Shown here one piece after another: positions 40,844-55,470 of a stretch of 64,000 nucleotides of DNA. Every line of letters starts with the position of its first letter. Position 1 is the stretch's first letter. The notes below the pieces were generated by a model. The model was not told the origin of the DNA, made no database searches, and was given only the letters and a program-made list of their open reading frames with translations. This DNA is from Clostridiales bacterium (GTDB lineage Bacteria > Bacillota > Dethiobacteria > Dethiobacterales > Dethiobacteraceae), in the NCBI GenBank assembly GCA_018335855.1, contig JAGXRM010000038.1, positions 124,001 to 188,000 on the forward strand. The letters are read 5' to 3'. A program made the translations under genes and the position numbers.

Positions 40844-41872
40844 TCAATTCTGGCACTTACCATTCACCGCTTCCATAACTAACTGATACAAAGCATCCTC
40901 CCCCTGGCGGACCACATCCACCACCGGTGTTTTTAGGCGGGAGGACATGGTTGACCACATCTCATCAGCATCCAGCCAAGACTTGACAAACTCACGGTTA
41001 GCCTTGTTATACAATGGATAAAAAGGGTTGATGGTCACAGACAAAAGGGAAAGAGGGGAACGAACTCCGACGTTTCCCCCTTCTCTGCAATAATCCCGTA
41101 TCAACAGGGACATCTTTAACAAATCCCCACATAATAACAGCTTTATGGGATTACTAAAAACAAGGCCGGGCAGAGAAGGGCATTGACTCAACGTCTCTGT
41201 CAGACGGGTAAACGGTTTAATATCCACCATGCCGGAAAATTCTATGAAACTGTGAGTACAATCTGCAAACGAGTACACTTTCAGATTGCGTTCAATTAGC
41301 AGGTTTGTGACATGCAACGCAGGCTCTTGGATAGTCAACTGTGGCAGATTCAATAGAAACTCAATTGCCTGGGCTTCTTGAGCCAGTTCTTCTATATTTG
41401 TATTGCGGGACGCTCCTGTAGCAATAATTAAACCGTCTACAATACCCATAGGGGCAAGACGGTTTAAAGCACCGTCAACAAGCAGTACCCTAACATTATA
41501 TTTATCGAGACAGGCTACAGTCTGCTCCAATGTCTTTTTACTGTTGGGGCCGGCCAAAACGACGAGTCCGCTTCTGCGTACCCTGCAGATAAAGAGACTG
41601 CCTAAAGGAACCTGCAATTCCAACTTCTCCAGTTTTTCCAGAACTGCACTGCCAGCGTTTAGGCATTTTTCTGCAGTCACTACAATGGAGCCGGTTGTAA
41701 GGTGCAAGCGCGGTTTAGGCAGATTGGTTACGTTATCAATTTCTTCACCATCATAGCCAATACTGGTGACCGCCAAACTGGCAGGACTGGGCCATCTGCT
41801 GATAAGAGACATAGTAGCCGTTGTCTTACCTGTATTTTTCGCTGTCCCTGCAATGCCTATCTTTTTAATCAT
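40844..41872 (-). CDS. P-loop NTPase, putative partner of the B12-dependent mutase
   Basis: 342 residues. KIGIAGTAKNTGKTTATMSLI is a clear Walker A (GxxxxGKT). Later segments (VLLVDGALNRLAPMGIVDGLIIATGAS) look like a SIMIBI GTPase fold. Its ATG overlaps the stop of the mutase gene (ATGA), so the two are translationally coupled. B12 mutases often need an NTP-dependent reactivase; KamB/KamC of lysine 5,6-aminomutase and MeaB-like chaperones are examples. That role is inferred from context, not from a specific motif. Confidence 0.7.
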   Translation of the reverse strand: MIKKIGIAGTAKNTGKTTATMSLISRWPSPASLAVTSIGYDGEEIDNVTNLPKPRLHLTTGSIVVTAEKCLNAGSAVLEKLEKLELQVPLGSLFICRVRRSGLVVLAGPNSKKTLEQTVACLDKYNVRVLLVDGALNRLAPMGIVDGLIIATGASRNTNIEELAQEAQAIEFLLNLPQLTIQEPALHVTNLLIERNLKVYSFADCTHSFIEFSGMVDIKPFTRLTETLSQCPSLPGLVFSNPIKLLLCGDLLKMSLLIRDYCREGGNVGVRSPLSLLSVTINPFYPLYNKANREFVKSWLDADEMWSTMSSRLKTPVVDVVRQGEDALYQLVMEAVNGKCQN

Positions 41873-43692
41873 GCATGAACCTTATAAACAGTACCCCGAC
41901 CTGCCCGGCCCGGATAGGCGCCGTCTTCCCTTGTCCCCAGCAAGCCTTTGTACAGGCTTTGCGCAAAGTCCCCTTCTTGCGCTACCTGTGCTAACACCTT
42001 TTCTATGCCGCTTAAAATCTCCTGCGACCACTGGGCCGCCTGCTCGGTTGGTGCAATTTTCGCTTTTCCCAGAAAACGAAAAGATTCTTTCACAGCTTTT
42101 AATGTATCAACCCTGGAAGCAGCAGCAATGGGACCGCCGGAATACGCTTCATCAGAAGAAGCAATTGAAATTGCTTCCACTCCGCAAGAAGCGGCAAGAG
42201 CTGCATGCAGACAGGTTGACACGGAAGACTGGACCCGTTCTTCTGTCTGTGTTAAAAAGCCAATCGGCGCACCGGGCCAAATAGGTGCGTCAACAATCTC
42301 CCTGAGCGCTAGTATTTTGGCTATATTAAAATCAATATAATTATCATTCATGTAGCCGTTAATCATTACTTCCGGCGAATTACAAAACAGTGGTTGTAAA
42401 ATTGGCTGGGCACCTAATTGAAGTGCCAGATTAGCAACGATTAACATGCCAGCGAAAGCCTTATGAGCAGGAACACCCGACAGCTCCTCATTCGTTACCA
42501 CGTCAAAAGGCATATTGTAGCCGGCGGCGAATTTTATCGACTGGACACCGTCAACCAAAAGTCTTTCAGGGTCCGTACCGCCTCCGAGTGAACCGTAGAC
42601 AATATTAATTTTCGTCAAATCAGCACCGGCATTAGCGGCCAATACGACAGTTTCAGGGGTATTAACCCCCCTGTGTGCCCGGACCTGCCAAAGGGTGGTG
42701 TCAAGCAGCGAACTTTTTATACATTGCAGGTTTTCAGGTGTTATGACTGACCCGTCTTCCTGGTGCGTCTGGTATCCTTCCATAAACCCTTCCGTACGGG
42801 CACCCCAGGACGGGTCAAAATGAACTACACCATCAGCTCCCCAGGCTTCAGCTACCTTTATATGACCAATGTCAAGGGATGGACAGCCTGTGCCATATTG
42901 AACAAACACCGCCGGCTTGCTACGTGTGTGTCGCAAATCTATTGCTCTCATCCTGGAATTGGTTAGCTTTAAATAGTCACTGAGCGCGTCCAACTCACTT
43001 TTCTCCAGCCGGCGCGTCTGAGGATGAAGAGTCCCCTTCGTGTAATAATTACTAATTACTTCATCACAAAGCCGGGCATACTCTTTTTTTAGGCTGGCAG
43101 CATCTTTGCCGGCTTGGTTCTCCTCAATAATTGCCTGGCGCAGCAATGCTCTTCCTATTCCCGGACTGCTTTTACCTTGGCTCCAGGATAGAATCTGGCC
43201 TGCAATCTGATCTAAAAGCTTCTTAATGTTTGCGTGATGAAACGTATAATGATAATCGCTTGTAAGGTCATATCGCTTTTTTTGAGTGGCATACTCTGCC
43301 AGGGTATACTCCCGGCCTTCAACAAAGGCGACGGCCTCTTCCACAGTGGTACCGGGTCCAAAACCGGCATCAAAGCCCAGTTCGGCCGCAAACTCAGGCC
43401 TAATCGCCATACCGCCCACAGCTACCCTAATCTTTTCCCGTAACCCCGCAGCGTCCAATAGGTCCACAAAGCGGGCCAAGAGCTCCTCCACGCCGTAACC
43501 TAAGGTACGGCTGACAAGGACTGTGTCTGCCTTATGCTCTATGATGGCATTGATGATTTCCTGTGCTGAATAATCAGGAGGGTAAAGCCAGGTCTGATGG
43601 CCGGCCTCGTTGAGAGCGCGACGAATCATTTTAAGTCCGATATCATGTACCGGATCCATGGGAGCTAACACTACTTTTTTACTTACTGTCAT
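41869..43692 (-). CDS. B12-binding glutamate-mutase-like fusion protein
   Basis: 607 residues. The N-terminal domain (about 5-130) is a B12-binding Rossmann fold: DPVHDIG (H16, variant of DxHxxG), VSRTLG (about 60-65) and VAVGGMA (about 91-97). After a helical linker, the C-terminal part (about 240-600) resembles the TIM barrel of methylaspartate mutase E chain: FVQYGTGCPSLDIGHIKVAE, INIVYGSLGGGTDPER, and SSDEAYSGGPIAAASRVDTL. In known glutamate mutases the two parts are separate proteins. The fusion with B12 domain first suggests a distinct carbon-skeleton mutase or aminomutase. Substrate unknown. Confidence 0.75.
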   Translation of the reverse strand: MTVSKKVVLAPMDPVHDIGLKMIRRALNEAGHQTWLYPPDYSAQEIINAIIEHKADTVLVSRTLGYGVEELLARFVDLLDAAGLREKIRVAVGGMAIRPEFAAELGFDAGFGPGTTVEEAVAFVEGREYTLAEYATQKKRYDLTSDYHYTFHHANIKKLLDQIAGQILSWSQGKSSPGIGRALLRQAIIEENQAGKDAASLKKEYARLCDEVISNYYTKGTLHPQTRRLEKSELDALSDYLKLTNSRMRAIDLRHTRSKPAVFVQYGTGCPSLDIGHIKVAEAWGADGVVHFDPSWGARTEGFMEGYQTHQEDGSVITPENLQCIKSSLLDTTLWQVRAHRGVNTPETVVLAANAGADLTKINIVYGSLGGGTDPERLLVDGVQSIKFAAGYNMPFDVVTNEELSGVPAHKAFAGMLIVANLALQLGAQPILQPLFCNSPEVMINGYMNDNYIDFNIAKILALREIVDAPIWPGAPIGFLTQTEERVQSSVSTCLHAALAASCGVEAISIASSDEAYSGGPIAAASRVDTLKAVKESFRFLGKAKIAPTEQAAQWSQEILSGIEKVLAQVAQEGDFAQSLYKGLLGTREDGAYPGRAGRGTVYKVHA

Positions 43693-43925
43693 TTCCCATC
43701 CGCCCCTTTCAGCCAGCCGTATTTGTCACCGGCACGGAAAATATAACCACGTGCTCTGACTCTGGCTCCGGGACCAAGGTGTTGACAATACACGACATCA
43801 ATATCTTTCAGGCCCATTTCCGTCATTATTTTTTTAATGACCTCTTTGGCCTCATTTTCATCTTTTGCTACAACAAATGTTTCGACGTCAAGTGCATCAA
43901 TGATACTATCCAGGCAATGGGCCAT
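43689..43925 (-). CDS. Small protein upstream of the B12 mutase
   Basis: 78 residues: ALDVETFVVAKDENEAKEVI, then GLKDIDVVYCQHLGPGARVR and RAGDKYGWLKG. Not recognised. It overlaps the mutase start by ATGA, implying a stoichiometric partner, perhaps a small subunit as OraS is to OraE. AAAGGA supports the ATG at 43925 over the one at 43934. Confidence 0.65.
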   Translation of the reverse strand: MAHCLDSIIDALDVETFVVAKDENEAKEVIKKIMTEMGLKDIDVVYCQHLGPGARVRARGYIFRAGDKYGWLKGADGK

Positions 43926-43950
43926 AAACAGCATCCTTTCTCTGTTAGAG

Positions 43951-44682
43951 TTATGTTTTGCCTTCTTCTTTGTGCACCAGAGACCAGAATTTTTGCACGT
44001 CGGAGATTAGATTATCAACGTGCTCCACCATGGCTTTTTCTGCTGCTTCAGGATCGCGGGCTCTGAGTGCTGTATAAATTTTATAATGGTCTTGCAGTAC
44101 CTGGCTGTGTACCTGTTTGCGGATATACTCCAGCACCGGCGAAAGTTGCGCATCCTGACGAATGAGGTCAAGTGCTGCTCTAAGTACCTTATTTCCTGCC
44201 GCTTCGGCAAGTAAATAGTGGAACTCCACATCTTTTTCTACCACACTTTTTGTTGATGCAGCCAGTCCGGGTTTTGCTATGCCTTCCATCAGGCTTAACT
44301 GGTGCGAAGTAATGTTAAGCGCAGCCTGACGGGCAATCTCACGTTCAATCGCTTTACGGGCTACAAGTATTTCTAAAAGTTCCTCTTTATTCCTTGACCC
44401 AACCAAATTCGCTAACTTCTGTGAATGATGCATACGCGCTTCTTCATTCACAATTTGCTCCAACCGCTCTTTACCAAATTCAGTTAAAATCCTGCCTTTG
44501 AAACCTTCCCTCTGCGTTAAACCCTGCTGGTCTAATAGGCGAAGCAATCGCCCTACCGTCGCTTCACTTACGTTATATTCTGCCTCATTCAGAGCCTTGC
44601 ATGCAGAGCCGCAACCTACAGGGGCATCGCTTCCGGCAATAAATTTTAGTAAAACAAGCTGTTCTTTTCTCTCTCTCAACAT
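43951..44682 (-). CDS. Winged-helix/FCD transcriptional regulator
   Basis: 243 residues. The N-terminal wing (about 10-80: APVGCGSACKALNEAEYNVS, EATVGRLLRLLDQQGLTQ) resembles the RNase R/NrpR-type winged helix rather than GntR. The C-terminal all-helical FCD domain (about 95-235) has KDVEFHYLLAEAAGNKVL and a later H in DHYKIYTALRARDPEAAEKAMVEHV, which are metal/ligand positions in FadR-like regulators. It probably controls this cluster in response to a carboxylate or amino-acid effector. Two direct repeats overlap its own promoter. Confidence 0.82.
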   Translation of the reverse strand: MLRERKEQLVLLKFIAGSDAPVGCGSACKALNEAEYNVSEATVGRLLRLLDQQGLTQREGFKGRILTEFGKERLEQIVNEEARMHHSQKLANLVGSRNKEELLEILVARKAIEREIARQAALNITSHQLSLMEGIAKPGLAASTKSVVEKDVEFHYLLAEAAGNKVLRAALDLIRQDAQLSPVLEYIRKQVHSQVLQDHYKIYTALRARDPEAAEKAMVEHVDNLISDVQKFWSLVHKEEGKT

Positions 44683-44847: not shown

Positions 44848-46281
44848 TTACATCATGAAAACGGCAACGATGGATGCGGTGATAAGACCACAGGCAACAG
44901 GAATAAAGTTTTTGCGGGCCAGATCTAAAGGATTGACTCCCGCAACACCAGCAGTAGCTACAAGGCCAAAGGCCCAGGCTGCAATGGTACCACCGCCGGA
45001 CCAAACAGCACCCATTTGACCGATAGCTGCCATGGCAGGCACACTGACACCAGCCGCGCCGCCAATGGATTGGGCCAGGCTGGCAGTCAGGGGCAGGCCT
45101 GAAAATCCGGAGCCATCAAGACCGGTAATTACACCAATGAACATGTTACCGAAAGAAAGTGCGAATTTATTCATCGGCAAAGAGGTAGCCAATTTGGTGC
45201 CCAAATCAAAAAGCAGTCTGGGAGCGCCTTCGCCTAGAATATCCGCCGCCGCACCGGCACCCAGAAAGAAAAAGCCGGCAATGGGAATAACAGGAGCGAA
45301 AATTTTAATTGCAAAGCCCATACCCTCACGCAAATGTCCCACAATCGACTCCAGAGCGTAATGGCCCTCTTCGAGAACACTGTTGAAAATCAGCATGGCA
45401 ACAGCAGCTCCGCCCAACAAAGCGGTTGCATCCCCACCACGGATATGGGGCATCGCTTCAATAAACTTAGAAGAAATCATGAGGATAATAATGGAGATGA
45501 ACACAGCAGGCACCACAATAGCACTGATAACCGCTTTATTATCTTTCCTTACCTTCGGCTCAGCCGCTGAAACCAGTTCGCTGCAGGCAGCCAGTTCACC
45601 GCTTGCCACTTTGGCACAATTGATGGTAATCTCTTTACGCATCATGAAGTAAGCAACTAAAATTGCAACGATACCTGTCACCCAGGAAAGAATGGCAACA
45701 TTACCCAGCATAGACCCGGAAGCAAGTCCTGCCGAGCGTTCGCTCAAACCAGGTGCGCCCTGGATGACAAGGTCTCCCGATAAAGCAACCCCGTGTCCAA
45801 AGATGTTAACGGCCATGGCAGCTGCCATGGGAGGCAGGCCTGCTTTTACAGCAACGGGAATCAGCATAACACCAACCAGAGCTGTAGCAGGAGTAGGCCA
45901 GAAAAAGAGAGCACAGACATACATAACACTGCCCAGTGCAAAAAAGCTAAGATGCGGGTTCACCATGAGCTTGCGGGCCGGAGAAACCATCAGATAGTCC
46001 GATCCCAGCTTTTGCATCGCTTTTAGCATCGCCACCATCAGAGCTATGACCAACATGATGTCAAACAAGTCCATACCGGCAATCATCAGTGCATTAAATG
46101 ATGACTGAATGGCAAAAACGATTCTCGCCACAAATGAACCCTGGGAATAGAGAAGACCGATGGTAAAGATACCAATTAAACAAGGCAACACAACATCCCG
46201 TCTGAGAACCATTGTAATAACGACGATAACAATAAAAAGCAGGTAAATCCAGTGAGAGGCAGTAAGAACTACTCCATCCAT
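44848..46281 (-). CDS. Multi-pass permease of the B12 cluster
   Basis: 477 residues, about 12 membrane helices (WIYLLFIVIVVITMVL, MLVIALMVAMLKAM, SVMYVCALFFWP ...). A conserved mid-protein loop (VNIFGHGVALSGDLVIQGAP) and its likely symmetric partner (MFIGVITGLDGSGFSGLPLTAS) suggest two inverted halves as in GntP, citrate or NhaC-type transporters. Family is not certain; probably a cation-coupled importer of a carboxylate or amino acid. GGAGG lies ten bases before the ATG. Confidence 0.75.
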   Translation of the reverse strand: MDGVVLTASHWIYLLFIVIVVITMVLRRDVVLPCLIGIFTIGLLYSQGSFVARIVFAIQSSFNALMIAGMDLFDIMLVIALMVAMLKAMQKLGSDYLMVSPARKLMVNPHLSFFALGSVMYVCALFFWPTPATALVGVMLIPVAVKAGLPPMAAAMAVNIFGHGVALSGDLVIQGAPGLSERSAGLASGSMLGNVAILSWVTGIVAILVAYFMMRKEITINCAKVASGELAACSELVSAAEPKVRKDNKAVISAIVVPAVFISIIILMISSKFIEAMPHIRGGDATALLGGAAVAMLIFNSVLEEGHYALESIVGHLREGMGFAIKIFAPVIPIAGFFFLGAGAAADILGEGAPRLLFDLGTKLATSLPMNKFALSFGNMFIGVITGLDGSGFSGLPLTASLAQSIGGAAGVSVPAMAAIGQMGAVWSGGGTIAAWAFGLVATAGVAGVNPLDLARKNFIPVACGLITASIVAVFMM

Positions 46282-46457: not shown

Positions 46458-47741
46458 TTAGTTAGTGGGTGTTTTTGCAAAAATCCCAGTCAACCCTGCT
46501 TCAGCAACACGATTTTCAACTACCGATTTCTCCGTGGTATACAGATCCTTGTCTTTCAGTGCATTAAAGAGAACAGAACCTGAGAAGGTATACTTCTTGC
46601 CCATTCCTCCCGGGGTCGCCATTTCTTCTTTCACCCAGGCAATCGCTTCACCGATAATCAGGCTGCGCGGAATTTCCAGCATCTTTACTCCCATTGCCGA
46701 GCATACAGCATTGTATCCGGCCAGGGTACCTGTGACAATAGCCTCGGTATGTCCTACCAGCAGGCCTGCCTTTTCCCCACCGCAGAACAGGTTATCCACG
46801 CCTTGTACCTGGAGATGGTTGTCGCGGGGTGAAAGAGCGAGATAACGCATTGAGTTCCCTGTGCCACCGGCATACGGGTCTTCATAGCGTGCTTCAGCAA
46901 AGCCGGGAATCTGGCGTAATGCTTCCAGGGGAAAGTAGGAAGTCATGAGCTTCGCATGACCTGTATCCAACAAAATAATATTTTGCTCAAATTCAGGCAG
47001 AGCATATTGCTGACAAGCCTTCTTCTCCATGGAACCGGTTTTCCGCATTTTTTCCGGAATAGGAATGATAGCAACACCTTTGGCATTCAATTCCTTAAGG
47101 ATTTCCGGTGCCAGTGACTCTTTATGCAGTTTACAGGAACCGCTCATAGCACCGATAGTGCCGTCTTCTTTAATACCCATAAACTCTTCGACGCCGGCTT
47201 TAGCAGCAATACTGACACGGCCTCCAAAGGTAGGACAGCGTAGAATACACATGGCACAGCCGTTGCCGTACTTTGTACAGTTAGCCATACCGCCTGCTGT
47301 ACCGGTAGCCTCTATAAATACATCCGCTTCCAATTTAGTTCCGTCGGCAAGGACAACTGCTGCGATTTTCTTCCCGTTCATTTCAACGTTTTTGGCTGCA
47401 CTCATACAGATAAGGCGAATCCCTTTACTTTCCAATAACTGCCGTACTGCCGGTTCAATTTTTGCCACATCGTATAATGATGCATGCTTGTGTCCGGGGA
47501 AATCTATATTCGTATGCCTTGAAACGCTATCTGTTACCTCAAACAGGTCGCCGCCACCCATAGCAATTGCTTCCTCGGTCGCTGTCCAGCGCCCGTTGTT
47601 ACGCATAATCCCTCCTACCAGTCCGGTTCCAAGCAACATATCAGTACGTTCAACCAGTGTGACATGTGCGCCTGCCTTGGCAGCAGCTAAAGCTGCCGCA
47701 GAGCCTGCCCATCCTCCGCCTACTACTACTACGTTTATCAT
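46458..47741 (-). CDS. FAD-dependent oxidoreductase of the B12 cluster
   Basis: 427 residues. The N-terminal Rossmann motif VVVVGGGWAGSAAALAAAKAG is followed by an FAD-binding signature near the C-terminus (VDNLFCGGEKAGLLVGHTEA). The overall layout recalls GidA/TrmFO-like flavoproteins and 'FAD-dependent oxidoreductase' proteins of anaerobes. A CAMCILRCP cluster at about residues 165-173 could be redox-active or bind a metal. No membrane segment. Likely oxidises an amine or hydroxy acid in this pathway, inferred from context. Confidence 0.72.
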   Translation of the reverse strand: MINVVVVGGGWAGSAAALAAAKAGAHVTLVERTDMLLGTGLVGGIMRNNGRWTATEEAIAMGGGDLFEVTDSVSRHTNIDFPGHKHASLYDVAKIEPAVRQLLESKGIRLICMSAAKNVEMNGKKIAAVVLADGTKLEADVFIEATGTAGGMANCTKYGNGCAMCILRCPTFGGRVSIAAKAGVEEFMGIKEDGTIGAMSGSCKLHKESLAPEILKELNAKGVAIIPIPEKMRKTGSMEKKACQQYALPEFEQNIILLDTGHAKLMTSYFPLEALRQIPGFAEARYEDPYAGGTGNSMRYLALSPRDNHLQVQGVDNLFCGGEKAGLLVGHTEAIVTGTLAGYNAVCSAMGVKMLEIPRSLIIGEAIAWVKEEMATPGGMGKKYTFSGSVLFNALKDKDLYTTEKSVVENRVAEAGLTGIFAKTPTN

Positions 47742-47878: not shown

Positions 47879-49324
47879 TTAGTTATAAGCATACTTTGTA
47901 ATAATCTCAATCAACTTAACTAATGCTTTCACGGCGTAACGAGCTCTCTCTTCGATGATCTGGCCCTTTTCATCCGTTGTGCCAAGACCCGGTGAAATAT
48001 AAATATTGGCATCATAGGCGATGGTGGGAATTACACCCATTTGAGCTAAACCGGTCTGGAGAAGATTGGAGCCCGCATACATATCTTCAATGGAGAAGAT
48101 GGGAATCCCTGAGCCATCAGCCCAAGTTCCTTCGTAATTGACTTCAATTGCTGTCGAGTTATAACTCTTGTTGAAGATAATTCCCTGACGCAGATTCGCA
48201 TCCAACTGACTGAATTCCTGCTCAATGATATCATAGAAGTCATCAACAGGCTTGGTCAGCACCTCCGGCGCATCCTTCAGCACACGCAGCGCAGCAATTT
48301 GGCCCAGCAGTGCTTCTTTACCGGGATCCTGAGTAACGTAGGCTGCTTTTCCGTAAGATGCGGTTGTGCCCCAACGATCGCCATGCATCCCCATAGCCCG
48401 GCGAATCGGCACCATATATTCTTCCTTGCCGATAATCAAGCCACTGGTTGTGGCGCCGCTTGCCTTGTCCATGCTGTAAATCATCACATCTGCGCCGGTC
48501 TTCCGGATGTCAGTACCAACGAAAGGAATGCCCCAGGCATTATCAACAATATAGGGAACGTTCCACTTTTGAGCCAAACGGCTCAAACCTTTCTGTAAAA
48601 GAGGAACTCCGTTTTCATCTTTTTGTCCATAACCGTACCCCGGCGTTTCATAGCCAAGAGAAGCAAACCCAGTCACTTGATCGGCATGACGCTGTGCCAC
48701 TTCTTCCATTTTTGCCACGGTTTTTTCAGCATCGACCCCTGTTAACAAAGGTACAGGCCAATACTTGATGCCGTGCACAGGATACTCTGCACCTTCCATG
48801 GGAACGATGACGGTGTCCATGTTATTTTGTCTTTTACCATAAAAACCTAGCTCACCTGCAGACGATCCGCGGTCAGCAAAAATATCTTTATACTTCGGAG
48901 GAAACGGGCGACCGTATGCTCCATGGTGATGTAAATGCTTTTCCAAAGGAGCTAAGTAGCGGGTCCGGTAATTATCACCGCGGCCAAGATTCGGAGGGGT
49001 AAGCAGACAATCATAGGCTGTCCAAAGACCAGCCTCACAGGTGTTGACGGGAGCGCAATCATATTCATCCCCATAAAAACCTTTAATCAGTTCCCTGATA
49101 TCATCGACTAACTTGGCCAGGGGGATAACTTTCTTGCCGCCTTCCTCACAAAAATGTGCAATATCGTCACGCAAGGGTGCGGGACAACCGGATATTGCAC
49201 CGGTTAAACCAAACGTACCTTTCAAATCATCGGGAATACCAATTTCTGCAGCGGCATCCTTCGCCTCTTTATAGATGGCGGGGATATTAGCCTGCAGCTT
49301 TTTATAAATTTGATACTTAAACAC
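47879..49324 (-). CDS. Fold-type I PLP-dependent enzyme of unknown specificity
   Basis: 481 residues. VDNAWGIPF supplies the Asp (D261) that contacts the pyridine nitrogen, and IYSMDKASGATTS the Schiff-base Lys (K287), typical of the aminotransferase fold. CEAGLWTAYDCLL and HGDRWGTTASYGKAAYV are further fixed points. Similarity is to SepSecS/aminotransferase class V-like proteins, but I cannot name a function. Candidates are a lyase, transaminase or racemase acting on the cluster's substrate. It lies 21 nt after the first gene. Confidence 0.75.
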   Translation of the reverse strand: MFKYQIYKKLQANIPAIYKEAKDAAAEIGIPDDLKGTFGLTGAISGCPAPLRDDIAHFCEEGGKKVIPLAKLVDDIRELIKGFYGDEYDCAPVNTCEAGLWTAYDCLLTPPNLGRGDNYRTRYLAPLEKHLHHHGAYGRPFPPKYKDIFADRGSSAGELGFYGKRQNNMDTVIVPMEGAEYPVHGIKYWPVPLLTGVDAEKTVAKMEEVAQRHADQVTGFASLGYETPGYGYGQKDENGVPLLQKGLSRLAQKWNVPYIVDNAWGIPFVGTDIRKTGADVMIYSMDKASGATTSGLIIGKEEYMVPIRRAMGMHGDRWGTTASYGKAAYVTQDPGKEALLGQIAALRVLKDAPEVLTKPVDDFYDIIEQEFSQLDANLRQGIIFNKSYNSTAIEVNYEGTWADGSGIPIFSIEDMYAGSNLLQTGLAQMGVIPTIAYDANIYISPGLGTTDEKGQIIEERARYAVKALVKLIEIITKYAYN

Positions 49325-49345: not shown

Positions 49346-49768
49346 TTATTTCTTACAACACTGTAAATCCTGACCAATCTGTAAATCTCTTTCACTTCCG
49401 GAAAGTGCTTGTCCGTGAATCACAATATTTAAGTGATTAGGCATATGAGTTTCATCAAAGCCGCAGACAGTCCCGATGACTTCATTGTCAATCATAATTG
49501 TGTCTCCTGAAACCATAACGCCGCCGTTTTGAAATTCGACGAATCCCAGGTACGCAATGGAATCCACTCTGTCTCCCGGTCGCGCATCTTTAACAGCAAT
49601 GATCAGCTCATGAACCTCATTCTTACAAATTACCCGTGATGGTTGAGATATGAGTTGTAAACCACGGCTAGAAAACTTTCCGTCCAACACTGCTACCAGC
49701 TTTCCCATAAGAGGGGCTTTTAGCACATATGGGTCCCTTTTAAACATCTTTACCTTATAAGGGTCCAC
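49346..49768 (-). CDS. DUF6917-like protein, first gene of the catabolic cluster
   Basis: 140 residues with beta-rich segments LMGKLVAVLDGKFSSRGLQL, VKDARPGDRVDSIAYLGFVE, and MIDNEVIGTVCGFDETHMPN HLNIVIHG-type core. Resembles a domain of unknown function found beside PLP and B12 enzymes. The frame opens with a GTG at 49777 that touches GGGAG; the GTG at 49768 is correctly spaced and preferred. A perfect palindrome lies 29 nt upstream. Confidence 0.7.
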   Translation of the reverse strand: MDPYKVKMFKRDPYVLKAPLMGKLVAVLDGKFSSRGLQLISQPSRVICKNEVHELIIAVKDARPGDRVDSIAYLGFVEFQNGGVMVSGDTIMIDNEVIGTVCGFDETHMPNHLNIVIHGQALSGSERDLQIGQDLQCCKK

Positions 49769-49796
49769 AAAATTCACTCCCTTTATTTTCTAGCCG

Positions 49797-50800: not shown

Positions 50801-52480
50801 CTACTTTGCGGTTGTAACCATTTCATTAATTGGACAATTGGGAGGCACCATGGGAAAAACATTTTCCCCGGTCTTCACTCTAAAGTCTATCACGACCGGG
50901 CCTGGCGTACTCAGCGCTTTTTGCAGCACAGGAATAACTTCAGACGGCTTTTGCGCCCTCAATCCCAAAGCACCGTAAGCCTCAGCCAGTTTAACAAAAT
51001 CCGGACTGCCTTTTTGAAGAACAACCGAAGAATAACGGCTGTGAAAAAACATCTCCTGCCATTGTCTGACAAGGCCCAGATGTTGATTATTAATAATGGC
51101 AACTTTAACAGGCAGGCAATACTTTACGGCTGTGGCCAGTTCCCGGATATTCATCTGAAAACTACCGTCTCCGGCGATACAAAAAACAACATCATCCGGA
51201 CAACCTAATTGAACTCCGATTGAAGCGGGAAACCCATAGCCCATGGTACCCAGTCCACCCGATGACGCAAAAGAGCGTGGTTTATTAAATTTATAGTACT
51301 GCGCCGTCCACATTTGATGCTGTCCTACTTCTGTTGTGATTAATGCCTTGCCTTCTGTTTGCTCATAGATCTGTTCAATAACAAACTGTGGGCAAATTTC
51401 GCCATCCGCATCCTGACAGTAGCGCATGGGAGCACAGCGCCGCCATTCATTAATTTTCGCCAGCCAAGGCTCTGTATTCTCAGGCCCGGGCTTTTTCAGT
51501 AATTGTGTTAAAACCTGCTTGATATCTCCGACAATGGGAATATCAGCACGAACGTTTTTCCCGATTTCTGCCGGATCTATATCAACATGAATGATTGTGG
51601 CATCCTTAGCAAAATCGCTTTTTCTGCCTGTAACACGGTCGTCAAAACGAGCACCGGCTGCAATAATTACATCTGCTTCATTTACTGCCATATTGGCCCA
51701 ATAAGTACCGTGCATGCCCAGCATTCCCAAAGCCAGAGGATGCCCCGTGGGAAATCCTGACAAACCCATTAGTGTCGTAGTTACAGGAATGCTAAATTTT
51801 TCAGCAAACTGCCGTAATTCCTCATGCGCACCTGAATAAATAATTCCGCCACCGGCATAAATAACTGGCTTATTAGCTTGGGCCAGAACCTTTGCCACTT
51901 TGTTTACCTGGCCCGGGTGACAATTGTAGACAGGATTATAACCGCGCATATAAATATTTTTCGGATACCTAAAAATTCCGATGTCCATCTGGACGTGGAT
52001 GGGTAAATCAATAAGAACAGGTCCACATCTACCCGTTGTTGCCAAATGAAAAGCTTCTCTGATCGTACGGGGCAAATCTGAAACCGATTCAACCACTGTA
52101 CTATGTTTTGTGATTGGCAAGGTGATGCTAAAGACATCCACATCTTTGTAGGCATCGTTAACACTATTTGCTGACATACCATGGCCGGTGAAAATCACCA
52201 TGGGGACAGAGTCCATATAGGCAGTGGCTATACCAGTTACAAGGCTGGTTGATCCCGGACCGGATGTGCTAAAGACGATACCCGGTTTCCCCGTGGCTCT
52301 TGCATAACCGTCTGCAGCATGGGCTGCACCCTGCTCGTGACAATACATAACGAACCGGATATCGGCCTCGGTTAACTGATTAACCACATTATCCGATGTA
52401 CCTCCGGGATAACAAAATACTGTATCCACAAGCTCTTTCTTCAGAGCCTCTACTACTATTTGGATCCCGCTCATTTTCAT
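50801..52480 (-). CDS. Acetolactate synthase-like TPP enzyme, copy 2 (diverged)
   Basis: About 559 residues, TPP-dependent carboligase fold. The catalytic Glu (CHEQGAAHAADGYARATGKPG), TPP motif GDGSFQMN...NN and VRQWQEMFF (the Trp linked to 2-oxobutyrate preference in AHAS) are kept. The segment that reads TGQVAIPLIGTDAFQE in copy 1 is changed here to TGHGMSANSVNDAYKD, losing the conserved Gln, so catalysis may differ. GAGGTG favours the ATG at 52480. No regulatory subunit gene follows. Confidence 0.85.
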   Translation of the reverse strand: MKMSGIQIVVEALKKELVDTVFCYPGGTSDNVVNQLTEADIRFVMYCHEQGAAHAADGYARATGKPGIVFSTSGPGSTSLVTGIATAYMDSVPMVIFTGHGMSANSVNDAYKDVDVFSITLPITKHSTVVESVSDLPRTIREAFHLATTGRCGPVLIDLPIHVQMDIGIFRYPKNIYMRGYNPVYNCHPGQVNKVAKVLAQANKPVIYAGGGIIYSGAHEELRQFAEKFSIPVTTTLMGLSGFPTGHPLALGMLGMHGTYWANMAVNEADVIIAAGARFDDRVTGRKSDFAKDATIIHVDIDPAEIGKNVRADIPIVGDIKQVLTQLLKKPGPENTEPWLAKINEWRRCAPMRYCQDADGEICPQFVIEQIYEQTEGKALITTEVGQHQMWTAQYYKFNKPRSFASSGGLGTMGYGFPASIGVQLGCPDDVVFCIAGDGSFQMNIRELATAVKYCLPVKVAIINNQHLGLVRQWQEMFFHSRYSSVVLQKGSPDFVKLAEAYGALGLRAQKPSEVIPVLQKALSTPGPVVIDFRVKTGENVFPMVPPNCPINEMVTTAK

Positions 52481-52552
52481 GCTCGACTTCACCTCAATTG
52501 TAAAAACAATCCCGATAAAACGTTATATATACTCTTCAGATTTGTTGCAATT

Positions 52553-52810
52553 CTAACGGATCCCTAACATAATCAATGTTACGCCCAGAATCAGCAGTAG
52601 CAGTTTCCGCTTATCCATTTTTGCACGTAAAGCTGCGATGCCCAAGGCGCTCACGGAAAGAAAAACAAAAGGCCCTATGCTTCCTAAAATACCATTAATT
52701 AATATGGCCTGTTGCAGATCATTAAAATAAAAAATCAGCAGCCCTCCGGTTAGACCCAGAAGGCCGTAAATCACCCTGGTCAATCCCATAAGCTTTACCC
52801 TTGCATCCAT
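52553..52810 (-). CDS. yqhV: YqhV (DUF2619) family membrane protein, copy 1
   Basis: 85 residues; helices around VIYGLLGLTGGLLIFYF, GSIGPFVFLSVSALGIAAL and LLLLILGVTLIML. About as long as copy 2 and sharing the central motif. It lies 32 nt after ilvN and before the second synthase. Confidence 0.87.
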   Translation of the reverse strand: MDARVKLMGLTRVIYGLLGLTGGLLIFYFNDLQQAILINGILGSIGPFVFLSVSALGIAALRAKMDKRKLLLLILGVTLIMLGIR

Positions 52811-52841
52811 GCAGACAACCCCTCTGTAGCCCGTGTCTCAG

Positions 52842-53330
52842 TTATTTTATTGTCTTGCTGCCTCTCAATATTGCAATTTTCCCCGTCCTGACAACTTCAA
52901 GGATGGTGTATTGTGAAAGCAACATTGTAATGGCTTCAATCTTTTCCTGGTTGCCCGTAACTTCGATAATTATCGAATTTAAAGCGACATCAACAATTTT
53001 AGCTCTAAACGTTTCCACGATTTGCTGAATTTCAGCCCTGTTGCCAACATCTGCACTTACTTTTATGAGCACCAGTTCTCTGTCCACTGAAGGCTCCTGA
53101 GTCAGGTTGGACACTTTTAAAACATTGATTAATTTATATAGCTGTTTAATAATCTGCTCTAAAATCTTTTCATCGGCTTCCACCTCGATGGTCATCCGAG
53201 ACACCATCGGCTCAACGGTTTTTCCCACAGCAAGGCTTTCAATATTATAACCCCTCCGGGAAAAAAGGCCTGCCACTCTGACGAGCACACCGGGCTTATC
53301 TTCCACCAGTACAGCTAAGACGTATCTCAT
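52842..53330 (-). CDS. ilvN: Acetolactate synthase small (regulatory) subunit
   Basis: 162 residues. N-terminal ACT domain (YVLAVLVEDKPGVLVRVAGLFSRRGYNIESLAVG) that binds valine for feedback inhibition, then the conserved ALS_ss_C domain (RELVLIKVSADVGNRAEIQQI). Its ATG overlaps the ilvB stop (ATGA), indicating coupled translation. Confidence 0.95.
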   Translation of the reverse strand: MRYVLAVLVEDKPGVLVRVAGLFSRRGYNIESLAVGKTVEPMVSRMTIEVEADEKILEQIIKQLYKLINVLKVSNLTQEPSVDRELVLIKVSADVGNRAEIQQIVETFRAKIVDVALNSIIIEVTGNQEKIEAITMLLSQYTILEVVRTGKIAILRGSKTIK

Positions 53331-55006
53331 TTTTGTTCCCCCTTTATCATTTTGTTAATTTGACTATTAGGTGGAACCATGGGAAAAACATTGGTATTAG
53401 ACATAACTCTGAAATCGATGACTGCGGGACCGCTAAACGCCAATGCCTCTTCTATGGCAGGCACGACATCCGCCGGCTTCTCGACACGCAGGCCTAATGC
53501 ACCATAGGCCTCAGCCATTTTGGCAAAATCAGGCACCTGTTGCAAATCGACGGAAATATATCGGCCCTTACAATAAAATTGCTGCAACTGGCGGACCATT
53601 CCCAGGCATTGATTATTAATAATTGCCACTTTAACAGGAATATTGTATTCCACAGCCATAGCAAGTTCCTGGGAATTCATCAGAAAACTGCCATCTCCGG
53701 CAATACAAAATACCAATTCGTCGGGACGCCCGACTTGCATGCCAAGAGATGCAGGGAATCCGTATCCCATCGCACCCAATCCACCCGAGGAAGCCAGGGA
53801 ACGCGGCCGCGTAAACTTGTAATACTGAGCAGTCCACATCTGATGCTGGCCCACTTCCGTCGCAATCAACGCTTTCCCTTGTGTCTTTTCATAAATTTTT
53901 TCAATAACAAATTGTGGAGATATTTCGCCATTCATATCCTGCGAATAGCTGAGAGGAGTTTCTTCCTTCCACTTCGCGATTTTTTCCAGCCACGGACCTG
54001 TATCTGATGGCCCCAATTTTTTCAGCAGTTCCGTTAGAACAAGCTTAACATCACCCACAATAGGGACGTCAACCTGGACGTTTTTCCCTATTTCCGCCGG
54101 ATCAATATCAATATGAACAATCTTTGCTTTACTGGCAAAACGTTTGGCGTCCCCTGTTACCCTTTCATCAAACCGCGCTCCCACGGCAAGAATCATGTCG
54201 GCGTTACTAACAGCCATATTTGCCCAGTACGTTCCGTGCATTCCCAGCATACCCAACGCCAGGGGATGATTTCCGGGAAAAGCGGACAGACCCATTAGTG
54301 TTGTCGTTACGGGAATTCCGCACTGTTCAGCCAACTGCAACAACTCTTCGTAGGCACCGGAATTTGTTACTCCGCCTCCTGCGTAAATTACAGGCTTTTT
54401 AGCACGGGCAATAGCTCTGGCACCTCTGGATATTTGTCCGGGATGACCGTTATAGGTTGGATTATACCCCGGAATGGATACATTCTCAGGATAACGGAAC
54501 TCTGCAACAGCCTGCTGTACATCCTTTGGAATATCAATCAGTACGGGGCCGCATCTGCCTGTGGTGGCCAGGTAAAAAGCCTGCTTAATAATTGTAGGCA
54601 ATTCACGCACATCTTTGACCAGAAAATTATGCTTTGTAATGGGGAGCGTAATCCCTGTAATGTCAACCTCCTGGAAAGCATCGGTGCCAATTAAGGGAAT
54701 CGCAACCTGCCCGGTTATAAAGACCATAGGAACAGAATCCATATAGGCGGCGGCAATGCCCGTAACCAAGTTGGTAGCCCCGGGACCGGATGTGGCCAGA
54801 ACCACCCCTGGCTTTCCTGTGGCACGTGCATATCCGTCCGCAGCATGCGCCGCACCCTGCTCGTGCCTGGATAAAATATGGCGAATGTCCGTGTCATAAA
54901 GCATATCATAGAGGTTTAGGACATTACCGCCGGGATACCCAAATATGGTATCAACATTCTCGTGTTTTAAGGCCTCCATGACCATTTGTGCGCCGGAAAT
55001 TTTCAT
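53327..55006 (-). CDS. ilvB: Acetolactate synthase large subunit, copy 1
   Basis: Condenses two pyruvates (or pyruvate and 2-oxobutyrate) in Val/Leu/Ile synthesis; uses TPP, Mg and FAD. 559 residues: FGYPGGNVLNLYDML, SRHEQGAAHAADGYA (catalytic Glu), TGQVAIPLIGTDAFQE, GDGSFLMN...NN. Where AHAS enzymes have VRQWQ this one has VRQLQ, losing the Trp that favours 2-oxobutyrate in E. coli AHAS II. It may thus prefer pyruvate. The T-box upstream fits amino-acid control. Confidence 0.95.
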   Translation of the reverse strand: MKISGAQMVMEALKHENVDTIFGYPGGNVLNLYDMLYDTDIRHILSRHEQGAAHAADGYARATGKPGVVLATSGPGATNLVTGIAAAYMDSVPMVFITGQVAIPLIGTDAFQEVDITGITLPITKHNFLVKDVRELPTIIKQAFYLATTGRCGPVLIDIPKDVQQAVAEFRYPENVSIPGYNPTYNGHPGQISRGARAIARAKKPVIYAGGGVTNSGAYEELLQLAEQCGIPVTTTLMGLSAFPGNHPLALGMLGMHGTYWANMAVSNADMILAVGARFDERVTGDAKRFASKAKIVHIDIDPAEIGKNVQVDVPIVGDVKLVLTELLKKLGPSDTGPWLEKIAKWKEETPLSYSQDMNGEISPQFVIEKIYEKTQGKALIATEVGQHQMWTAQYYKFTRPRSLASSGGLGAMGYGFPASLGMQVGRPDELVFCIAGDGSFLMNSQELAMAVEYNIPVKVAIINNQCLGMVRQLQQFYCKGRYISVDLQQVPDFAKMAEAYGALGLRVEKPADVVPAIEEALAFSGPAVIDFRVMSNTNVFPMVPPNSQINKMIKGEQK

Positions 55007-55199: not shown

Positions 55200-55470
55200 T
55201 AAAAAAATCCAGCCGCCCATTATTACATGTTAAGGGGCGAAAGGATTTCCTCCGCGGTACCACCCTTATTCTTTCGGCTAAGCCGAACTCAAGGTTAAAC
55301 CTGCTGATAACGGACAGCTCCGGCCCGGCCTACTTGTACTTTCGGGGGGCAGCTTCAGGGGGACTTTCATCCGTAGCGTTTACCGGTTCACAGCTTCCAC
55401 CGGCTCTCTGAAAAACAAATTACGGGTTACTTTCCCTGGCATTGCTGTTTACAAAATAGCGAAAATATTG
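55200..55470 (-). promoter_or_regulatory. T-box leader of the ilv operon
   Basis: The 14-nt antiterminator core AGGGTGGTACCGCGG is at 55252-55266. An AGAGAGCC...GGTG stem I start is near 55403-55412, and the competing terminator (AAATCC...GGATTT, T-run at 55200-55208) follows. A GTC in the stem I loop context GAAA-GTC-CCCCTGAAGC suggests a valine specifier. Uncharged tRNA would favour read-through into ilvB. Confidence 0.9.

Follow-up and report, generated by a model that had tools for sequence, protein, structure and literature searches.

What kind of enzyme carries a B12-binding domain in front of a mutase-type barrel within a single chain, and which known system is nearest to it? The gene in question lies in a stretch of 64,000 nucleotides (the window) from a contig of a Clostridiales bacterium, and a preliminary description had taken its product to be a B12 domain fused to a glutamate-mutase-like barrel, with a variant cobalamin motif and the standing of a new subgroup. 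We consider it probable that the product, hereafter the mutase, is the catalytic chain of an AdoCbl-dependent radical mutase that was rearranged from the lysine 5,6-aminomutase (KamDE) line and works free of PLP. The genes of the cluster are listed in Table 1.

Table 1. Genes of the mutase cluster, with positions in the window.
Feature	Position	Strand	Remarks
KamB-type reactivase subunit, 342 aa	40844..41872	-	Downstream of mutase; start overlaps mutase stop (ATGA)
Mutase, predicted catalytic chain, 607 aa	41869..43692	-	Single open frame, ATG start; N-terminal residues 1-128, B12-binding Rossmann domain; residues ~150-607, helical extension and barrel of KamD type
Small subunit, 81 aa, stand-alone KamE/OraE-type dimerization domain	43689..43934	-	Stop overlaps mutase start (ATGA)
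FCD-domain transcriptional regulator of the cluster	43951..44682	-	Pfam FCD, 9.9e-24
Membrane transporter	44848..46281	-	No family match
GidA-like FAD-dependent oxidoreductase	46458..47741	-	Pfam GIDA, 2e-33
Separate fold-type-I PLP enzyme, SelA/DgaE/Cys-Met lyase-like	47879..49324	-	Weak matches
DUF6917 protein	49346..49777	-	Pfam PF21891, 3.8e-44

Residues 14 to 121 of the mutase match the Pfam B12-binding family (PF02310; E = 3.8e-15, 56.2 bits against a cut-off of 32.1), and the domain aligns with that of KamE (hhalign E = 7e-24); the remaining 480 residues have no family match among the Pfam and NCBIfam models. The Pfam match, together with the profile and fold comparisons described below, bears out the initial observation that a B12 domain precedes a mutase-type barrel within one chain. 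The classic DxHxxG motif is absent and DPVHDIG is found, with the His kept and the Asp at -3. None of the 29 full-length homologues departs from the D13-P14-V15-H16-D17 stretch, and position 19 is occupied by Gly in 27 of them and by Ala in the other 2. Because the D-x-x-H variant is invariant across these homologues, we regard it as a family trait rather than an error, and the displacement of the Asp by one place that had been pointed out at the start is real. Though variant, DPVHDIG would work like the DxHxxG motif; its His16 is the predicted axial ligand of cobalt, and cobalt ligation could be altered by the variant. Two Anaerolineae members (L005:8998-10836 and L006:8998-10830) read DPVHDNA, where the Gly of DxHxxG is gone and the His is retained.

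The second part of the chain is, by profile and predicted fold, clearly a B12-mutase barrel with KamD, the lysine 5,6-aminomutase alpha chain, as its nearest relative. Profile-profile comparison with hhalign gave scores of 54.5 for KamD (E = 3e-6), 38.0 for OraE, and 32.6 for GlmE, against best scores of 24.6, 21.8, and 28.5, respectively, in 20 column-shuffled controls. The top foldseek match of the AlphaFold model is 1xrs_A (KamD; E = 1.2e-10), and VIA-align Z scores are 22.4 to 22.7 for three KamD entries (22.6 over 370 residues), 17.6 for GlmE, and 16.9 for OraE; the model was built from an alignment of five sequences and is modest (mean pLDDT 68.7, pTM 0.70, parts of the barrel below 50). 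Since profile and predicted fold both rank KamD first, we place the barrel nearest to KamD, followed by OraE and GlmE, and in foldseek and VIA-align the C-terminal half matches KamD rather than a methyltransferase barrel. The C-terminal likeness to the glutamate mutase E chain noted earlier can be seen, in that hhalign pairs EAYSGGPIAAASRVDTLKAV with HEALGIPTKEANAAGLKAT of GlmE over 80 columns (E = 0.003), but of the three profiles GlmE gives the weakest match, with both KamD and OraE scoring higher. The mutase itself has no match to PF09043 (KamD alpha chain) at E = 0.1 and none to PF06368 (glutamate mutase E chain), for which one homologue reaches 19 bits, below the cut-off of 26.6. Canonical GlmE was not found in the mutase's own genome, and neither was KamD, in a search that matched no control genome either.

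The two genes that overlap the mutase gene also point toward the KamDE line. The small subunit scores E = 5e-4 and 20.9 bits against Pfam OAM_dimer (PF16554), below the cut-off of 25, and aligns with the N terminus of KamE (hhalign E = 3.1e-6); OAM or LAM chains make up 8 of the 10 top PDB matches to its predicted fold (best E = 5e-3), and 23 of the 25 loci carry its ORF directly ahead of the mutase gene. As far as these profiles and models go, the mutase and small subunit together are a reshuffled KamDE, in which one chain with the barrel and another with the dimerization and B12 domains have given way to one chain with the dimerization domain and another with the B12 domain and barrel. The downstream gene appears, by sequence, to encode a dedicated KamB-type reactivase of the mutase. 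It matches NCBIfam NF052386 (KamB) with E = 1.1e-54 and 185.7 bits against a cut-off of 210, and the reactivases beside orthologous mutases score 190 to 255 bits. A KamB-type reactivase is present in 37 of 37 mutase-bearing genomes, and genomes that have both the mutase and KamDE carry a separate KamB copy for each (e.g., on C10 versus C1 in G209); no KamC was found near the mutase in 25 loci. Because each junction overlaps by four bases (ATGA), the small subunit, mutase, and reactivase are probably translated together. Two reactivases (L033:10559-11632 and L030:7392-8495) pass the NF052386 cut-off beside a mutase that is not KamDE, so misannotation is likely, and the curated label "lysine 5,6-aminomutase reactivase KamB" is likely mis-assigned to reactivases adjacent to the mutase.

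Full-length relatives of the mutase, with 52 to 72% identity, occur in 37 other genomes among 398 sampled from the same phylum, or about 1 in 10, and beyond that sample in two Bacillota MAGs and two Anaerolineae MAGs, the latter taking the family into the Chloroflexota; in plasmid records, matches are confined to the B12 domain. Across 29 sequences, 120 positions are invariant, including the D13-D17 stretch, K21, R338, H340, R341, K361, Y366, D374, and R377. The homologues are set apart by their unusual domain order and variant motif, in agreement with the separate subgroup that had been proposed, and we found no description of the mutase family or of DUF6917 in the literature, mainly openly accessible papers. 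GlmE-like ORFs of 550 aa were considered as further relatives and rejected; the one inspected (L092, in the same genome as the window) resembles, by eye, the methylmalonyl-CoA mutase large chain.

Within 10 kb of the mutase, nearly always on the same strand, the 25 loci encode the PLP enzyme (20 loci), DUF6917 (18), the GidA-like flavoprotein (18), the FCD regulator (16, always on the same strand), RidA (13), and the transporter (11). The PLP enzyme, which has weak matches to DgaE and O-acetylhomoserine sulfhydrylase models, and DUF6917 each occur in 37 of 37 genomes with the mutase and in 0 of 39 without it (76 genomes; Fisher p ~1e-22, with genomes counted as independent despite their kinship). 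The association also holds in G388 and G368, where the PLP enzyme and/or DUF6917 sit on other contigs. Given this strict co-occurrence, we regard the mutase, PLP enzyme, and DUF6917 as one functional module. A carboxylate carrier is suggested by the transporter homologue in L006, which weakly matches DctM; a carboxylate substrate is suggested by this DctM-like transporter together with the FCD regulator and a pocket rich in Arg and His, and RidA suggests an imine arising from a PLP or flavin step. The genome that contains the window also encodes a corrinoid adenosyltransferase. We did not retain a substrate assignment from the neighbors, since the recurrent flavoprotein, RidA, PLP enzyme, DUF6917, regulator, and transporter indicate no single compound; a DAP dehydrogenase and a D-cysteate sulfo-lyase-like protein in L005, a malic enzyme in L006, and an AOR in L004 are not recurrent and were set aside as pathway clues.

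Several other features of these loci may be recorded. The GidA-like flavoprotein has a cysteine-rich GCAMCILRC segment that might bind a metal or an Fe-S cluster. Four loci (L028, L031, L032, and L033) have a second flavoprotein paralogue downstream of the mutase, beside an ORF sized like a PRK05802-type FAD/NAD-binding protein, which was identified as such in L033 only; the two are possibly an electron-transfer pair. Elsewhere in the window, a single ACT-type small subunit (52842-53330) sits between two large subunits that resemble acetolactate synthase (50801-52492 and 53327-55006), all on the (-) strand, in an unusual duplicated arrangement (50801-55006) that is probably controlled by an upstream T-box leader (55230-55451, (-) strand; Rfam, 125 bits).

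Whether the mutase shares the second cofactor of its nearest relatives was judged from the active-site positions. PLP in KamD is contacted by Arg184, Gly187-Gln188-Ser189, Tyr236, Ser238, Tyr263, Arg268, and Asn299, along with Lys144 of KamE (PMC3958899). The PLP-lysine position, 11 residues beyond the cobalt-ligand His, is Lys in 15 of 15 KamE sequences and Leu in 29 of 29 mutase sequences. In the barrel, where the mapping combines remote profile alignments at ~20% identity with the modest AlphaFold model, KamD Arg184 aligns to Asp293, Gly187-Ser189 falls on a deletion, Tyr236, Ser238, and Arg268 correspond to Ala339, Arg341, and Gly371, and Asn299 lies opposite a gap; Tyr263 is retained as Tyr366. 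On this mapping, the mutase appears to lack the PLP of the lysine and ornithine aminomutase line. A weak alignment to GlmE places Arg149 and Tyr181 (residue numbering checked), which we take to be substrate contacts, at Arg338 and Tyr366, while the positions aligned with GlmE Arg66 and Arg100 have no Arg, leaving Arg149 alone matched of the three substrate arginines. The term "glutamate-mutase-like" originally given to the barrel holds for these active-site positions, but overall the barrel is closer to KamD. The match at the two GlmE positions, Arg149 and Tyr181, suggests a mutase that needs no PLP and works on a carboxylate. Adjoining Tyr366 are the glycine-rich loop YGSLGGGTDPER and the invariant Lys361.

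These last elements could form a relocated PLP or phosphate site, and the mutase might then still be a PLP-plus-B12 aminomutase like KamDE and OraE, with PLP on a relocated lysine (e.g., Lys361) and GGGTDPER as a new phosphate loop. Such an enzyme would be in keeping with KamD as the closest overall fold, with Tyr366 at the position of the PLP-stacking Tyr263, with the near or full invariance of K361 and the G-T-D-P-R loop, and with an operon encoding both a KamB-type reactivase and a dimerization domain. We nonetheless think it unlikely, given the Leu at His+11 in every homologue, the lack of aligned counterparts for Arg184, Gly-Gln-Ser, Ser238, and Arg268, and the lack of precedent among known members for a barrel lysine as PLP anchor.

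A glutamate mutase subgroup with fused S and E chains, which would make glutamate mutase the closest relative as the preliminary description had it, is highly improbable. The weak C-terminal GlmE profile match, the conserved Arg149 and Tyr181 positions, and the GlmE Z score all speak for it, but KamD and OraE outscore GlmE in the profiles and KamD does so in Z, no Arg stands opposite GlmE Arg66 or Arg100, the B12 domain is KamE-like, and the operon holds a KamE dimerization-domain protein and a KamB-type reactivase. These same two operon partners argue against a corrinoid methyltransferase that uses methyl-cobalamin chemistry rather than a radical mutase; here, too, the barrel goes with KamD rather than with the barrels of methyltransferases, and the B12 domain has no preceding helical cap domain. 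We give this last reading almost no weight, even though the B12 domain also matches corrinoid proteins, MtgC and MtbC among them, and a barrel with a B12 domain is common in methyltransferases.

For the PLP-free radical mutase of the KamDE line that we favor, we infer a mechanism in which cobalamin binding, PLP independence, the reaction, and the pathway order would fit together as follows. The 81-aa subunit would be the split-off dimerization domain of KamE, whose B12 domain would have fused ahead of the KamD barrel. Cobalt would be ligated by His16 in a base-off/His-on state; on entry of the substrate into the barrel, the B12 domain would swing over it and the Co-C bond would break, allowing the 5'-deoxyadenosyl radical to take a hydrogen before a 1,2-shift. 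The substrate would be gripped directly by R338, H340, R341, and Y366, as in glutamate mutase, with no external aldimine on PLP; since such direct contacts resemble those of glutamate mutase, it is probably a carboxylate, e.g., an amino or hydroxy acid. The KamB-type protein from the neighboring gene would assist the exchange of inactivated cobalamin, and the PLP enzyme and DUF6917 would take over the product; the flavoprotein and RidA (imine hydrolysis) would act at later steps. The chances seem to us slightly better than even that this PLP-free KamDE scaffold is a class of AdoCbl-dependent mutase not described before, and that its radical rearrangement of a carboxylate opens a widespread catabolic pathway of anaerobes, with the PLP enzyme and DUF6917 as further obligate members. 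Because the same undescribed companions are always present, the mutase probably marks an undescribed degradation pathway in anaerobic bacteria. To our knowledge, the AdoCbl mutase reactions known so far number only about eight, and a reactivase of its own and strictly co-inherited undescribed enzymes point to an unrecognized reaction as well as pathway. If the proposal is true, it shows how PLP can be acquired or given up on one scaffold, a point relevant to the need of lysine and ornithine aminomutases for two cofactors.

Among the known systems, lysine 5,6-aminomutase KamD/KamE (PDB 1XRS, 8T0V, and 9Q1A) shares the most with the mutase locus: the barrel fold, the N-terminal helical extension, the KamE-type B12 domain, the KamE dimerization domain (a separate protein here), and the KamB-type reactivase. 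It differs in domain order, with the barrel on one chain and the dimerization and B12 domains on the other, in its DxHxxG motif (DxxHxxG in the mutase), and in its PLP lysine and PLP pocket, most residues of which have no counterpart in the mutase, whose locus also lacks KamC. D-ornithine 4,5-aminomutase OraE/OraS has the fold class, the dimerization domain, and a similar C-terminal YPxRxG tail in common with the mutase, but OraE combines barrel, dimerization, and B12 domains in one chain and binds PLP on Lys629, and no OraS-like subunit is seen with the mutase. The predicted PLP-free state, the Arg and Tyr at the GlmE Arg149 and Tyr181 positions, and the weak C-terminal profile match are shared with glutamate mutase GlmS/GlmE, which is less similar overall, has the Arg66 and Arg100 that the mutase does not retain, and is accompanied by MutL/GlmL, in contrast to the single-chain, B12-first mutase with KamB. 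The fused isobutyryl-CoA mutase IcmF likewise carries its B12 domain first, N-terminal to the barrel in a single chain; it differs in its G-domain and CoA-binding barrel, whereas the reactivase of the mutase is a separate KamB-type protein. Within the KamDE, OraE, and glutamate mutase types, the domain order initially put forward as a novelty is thus new, with IcmF as the precedent for a B12 domain followed by a barrel.
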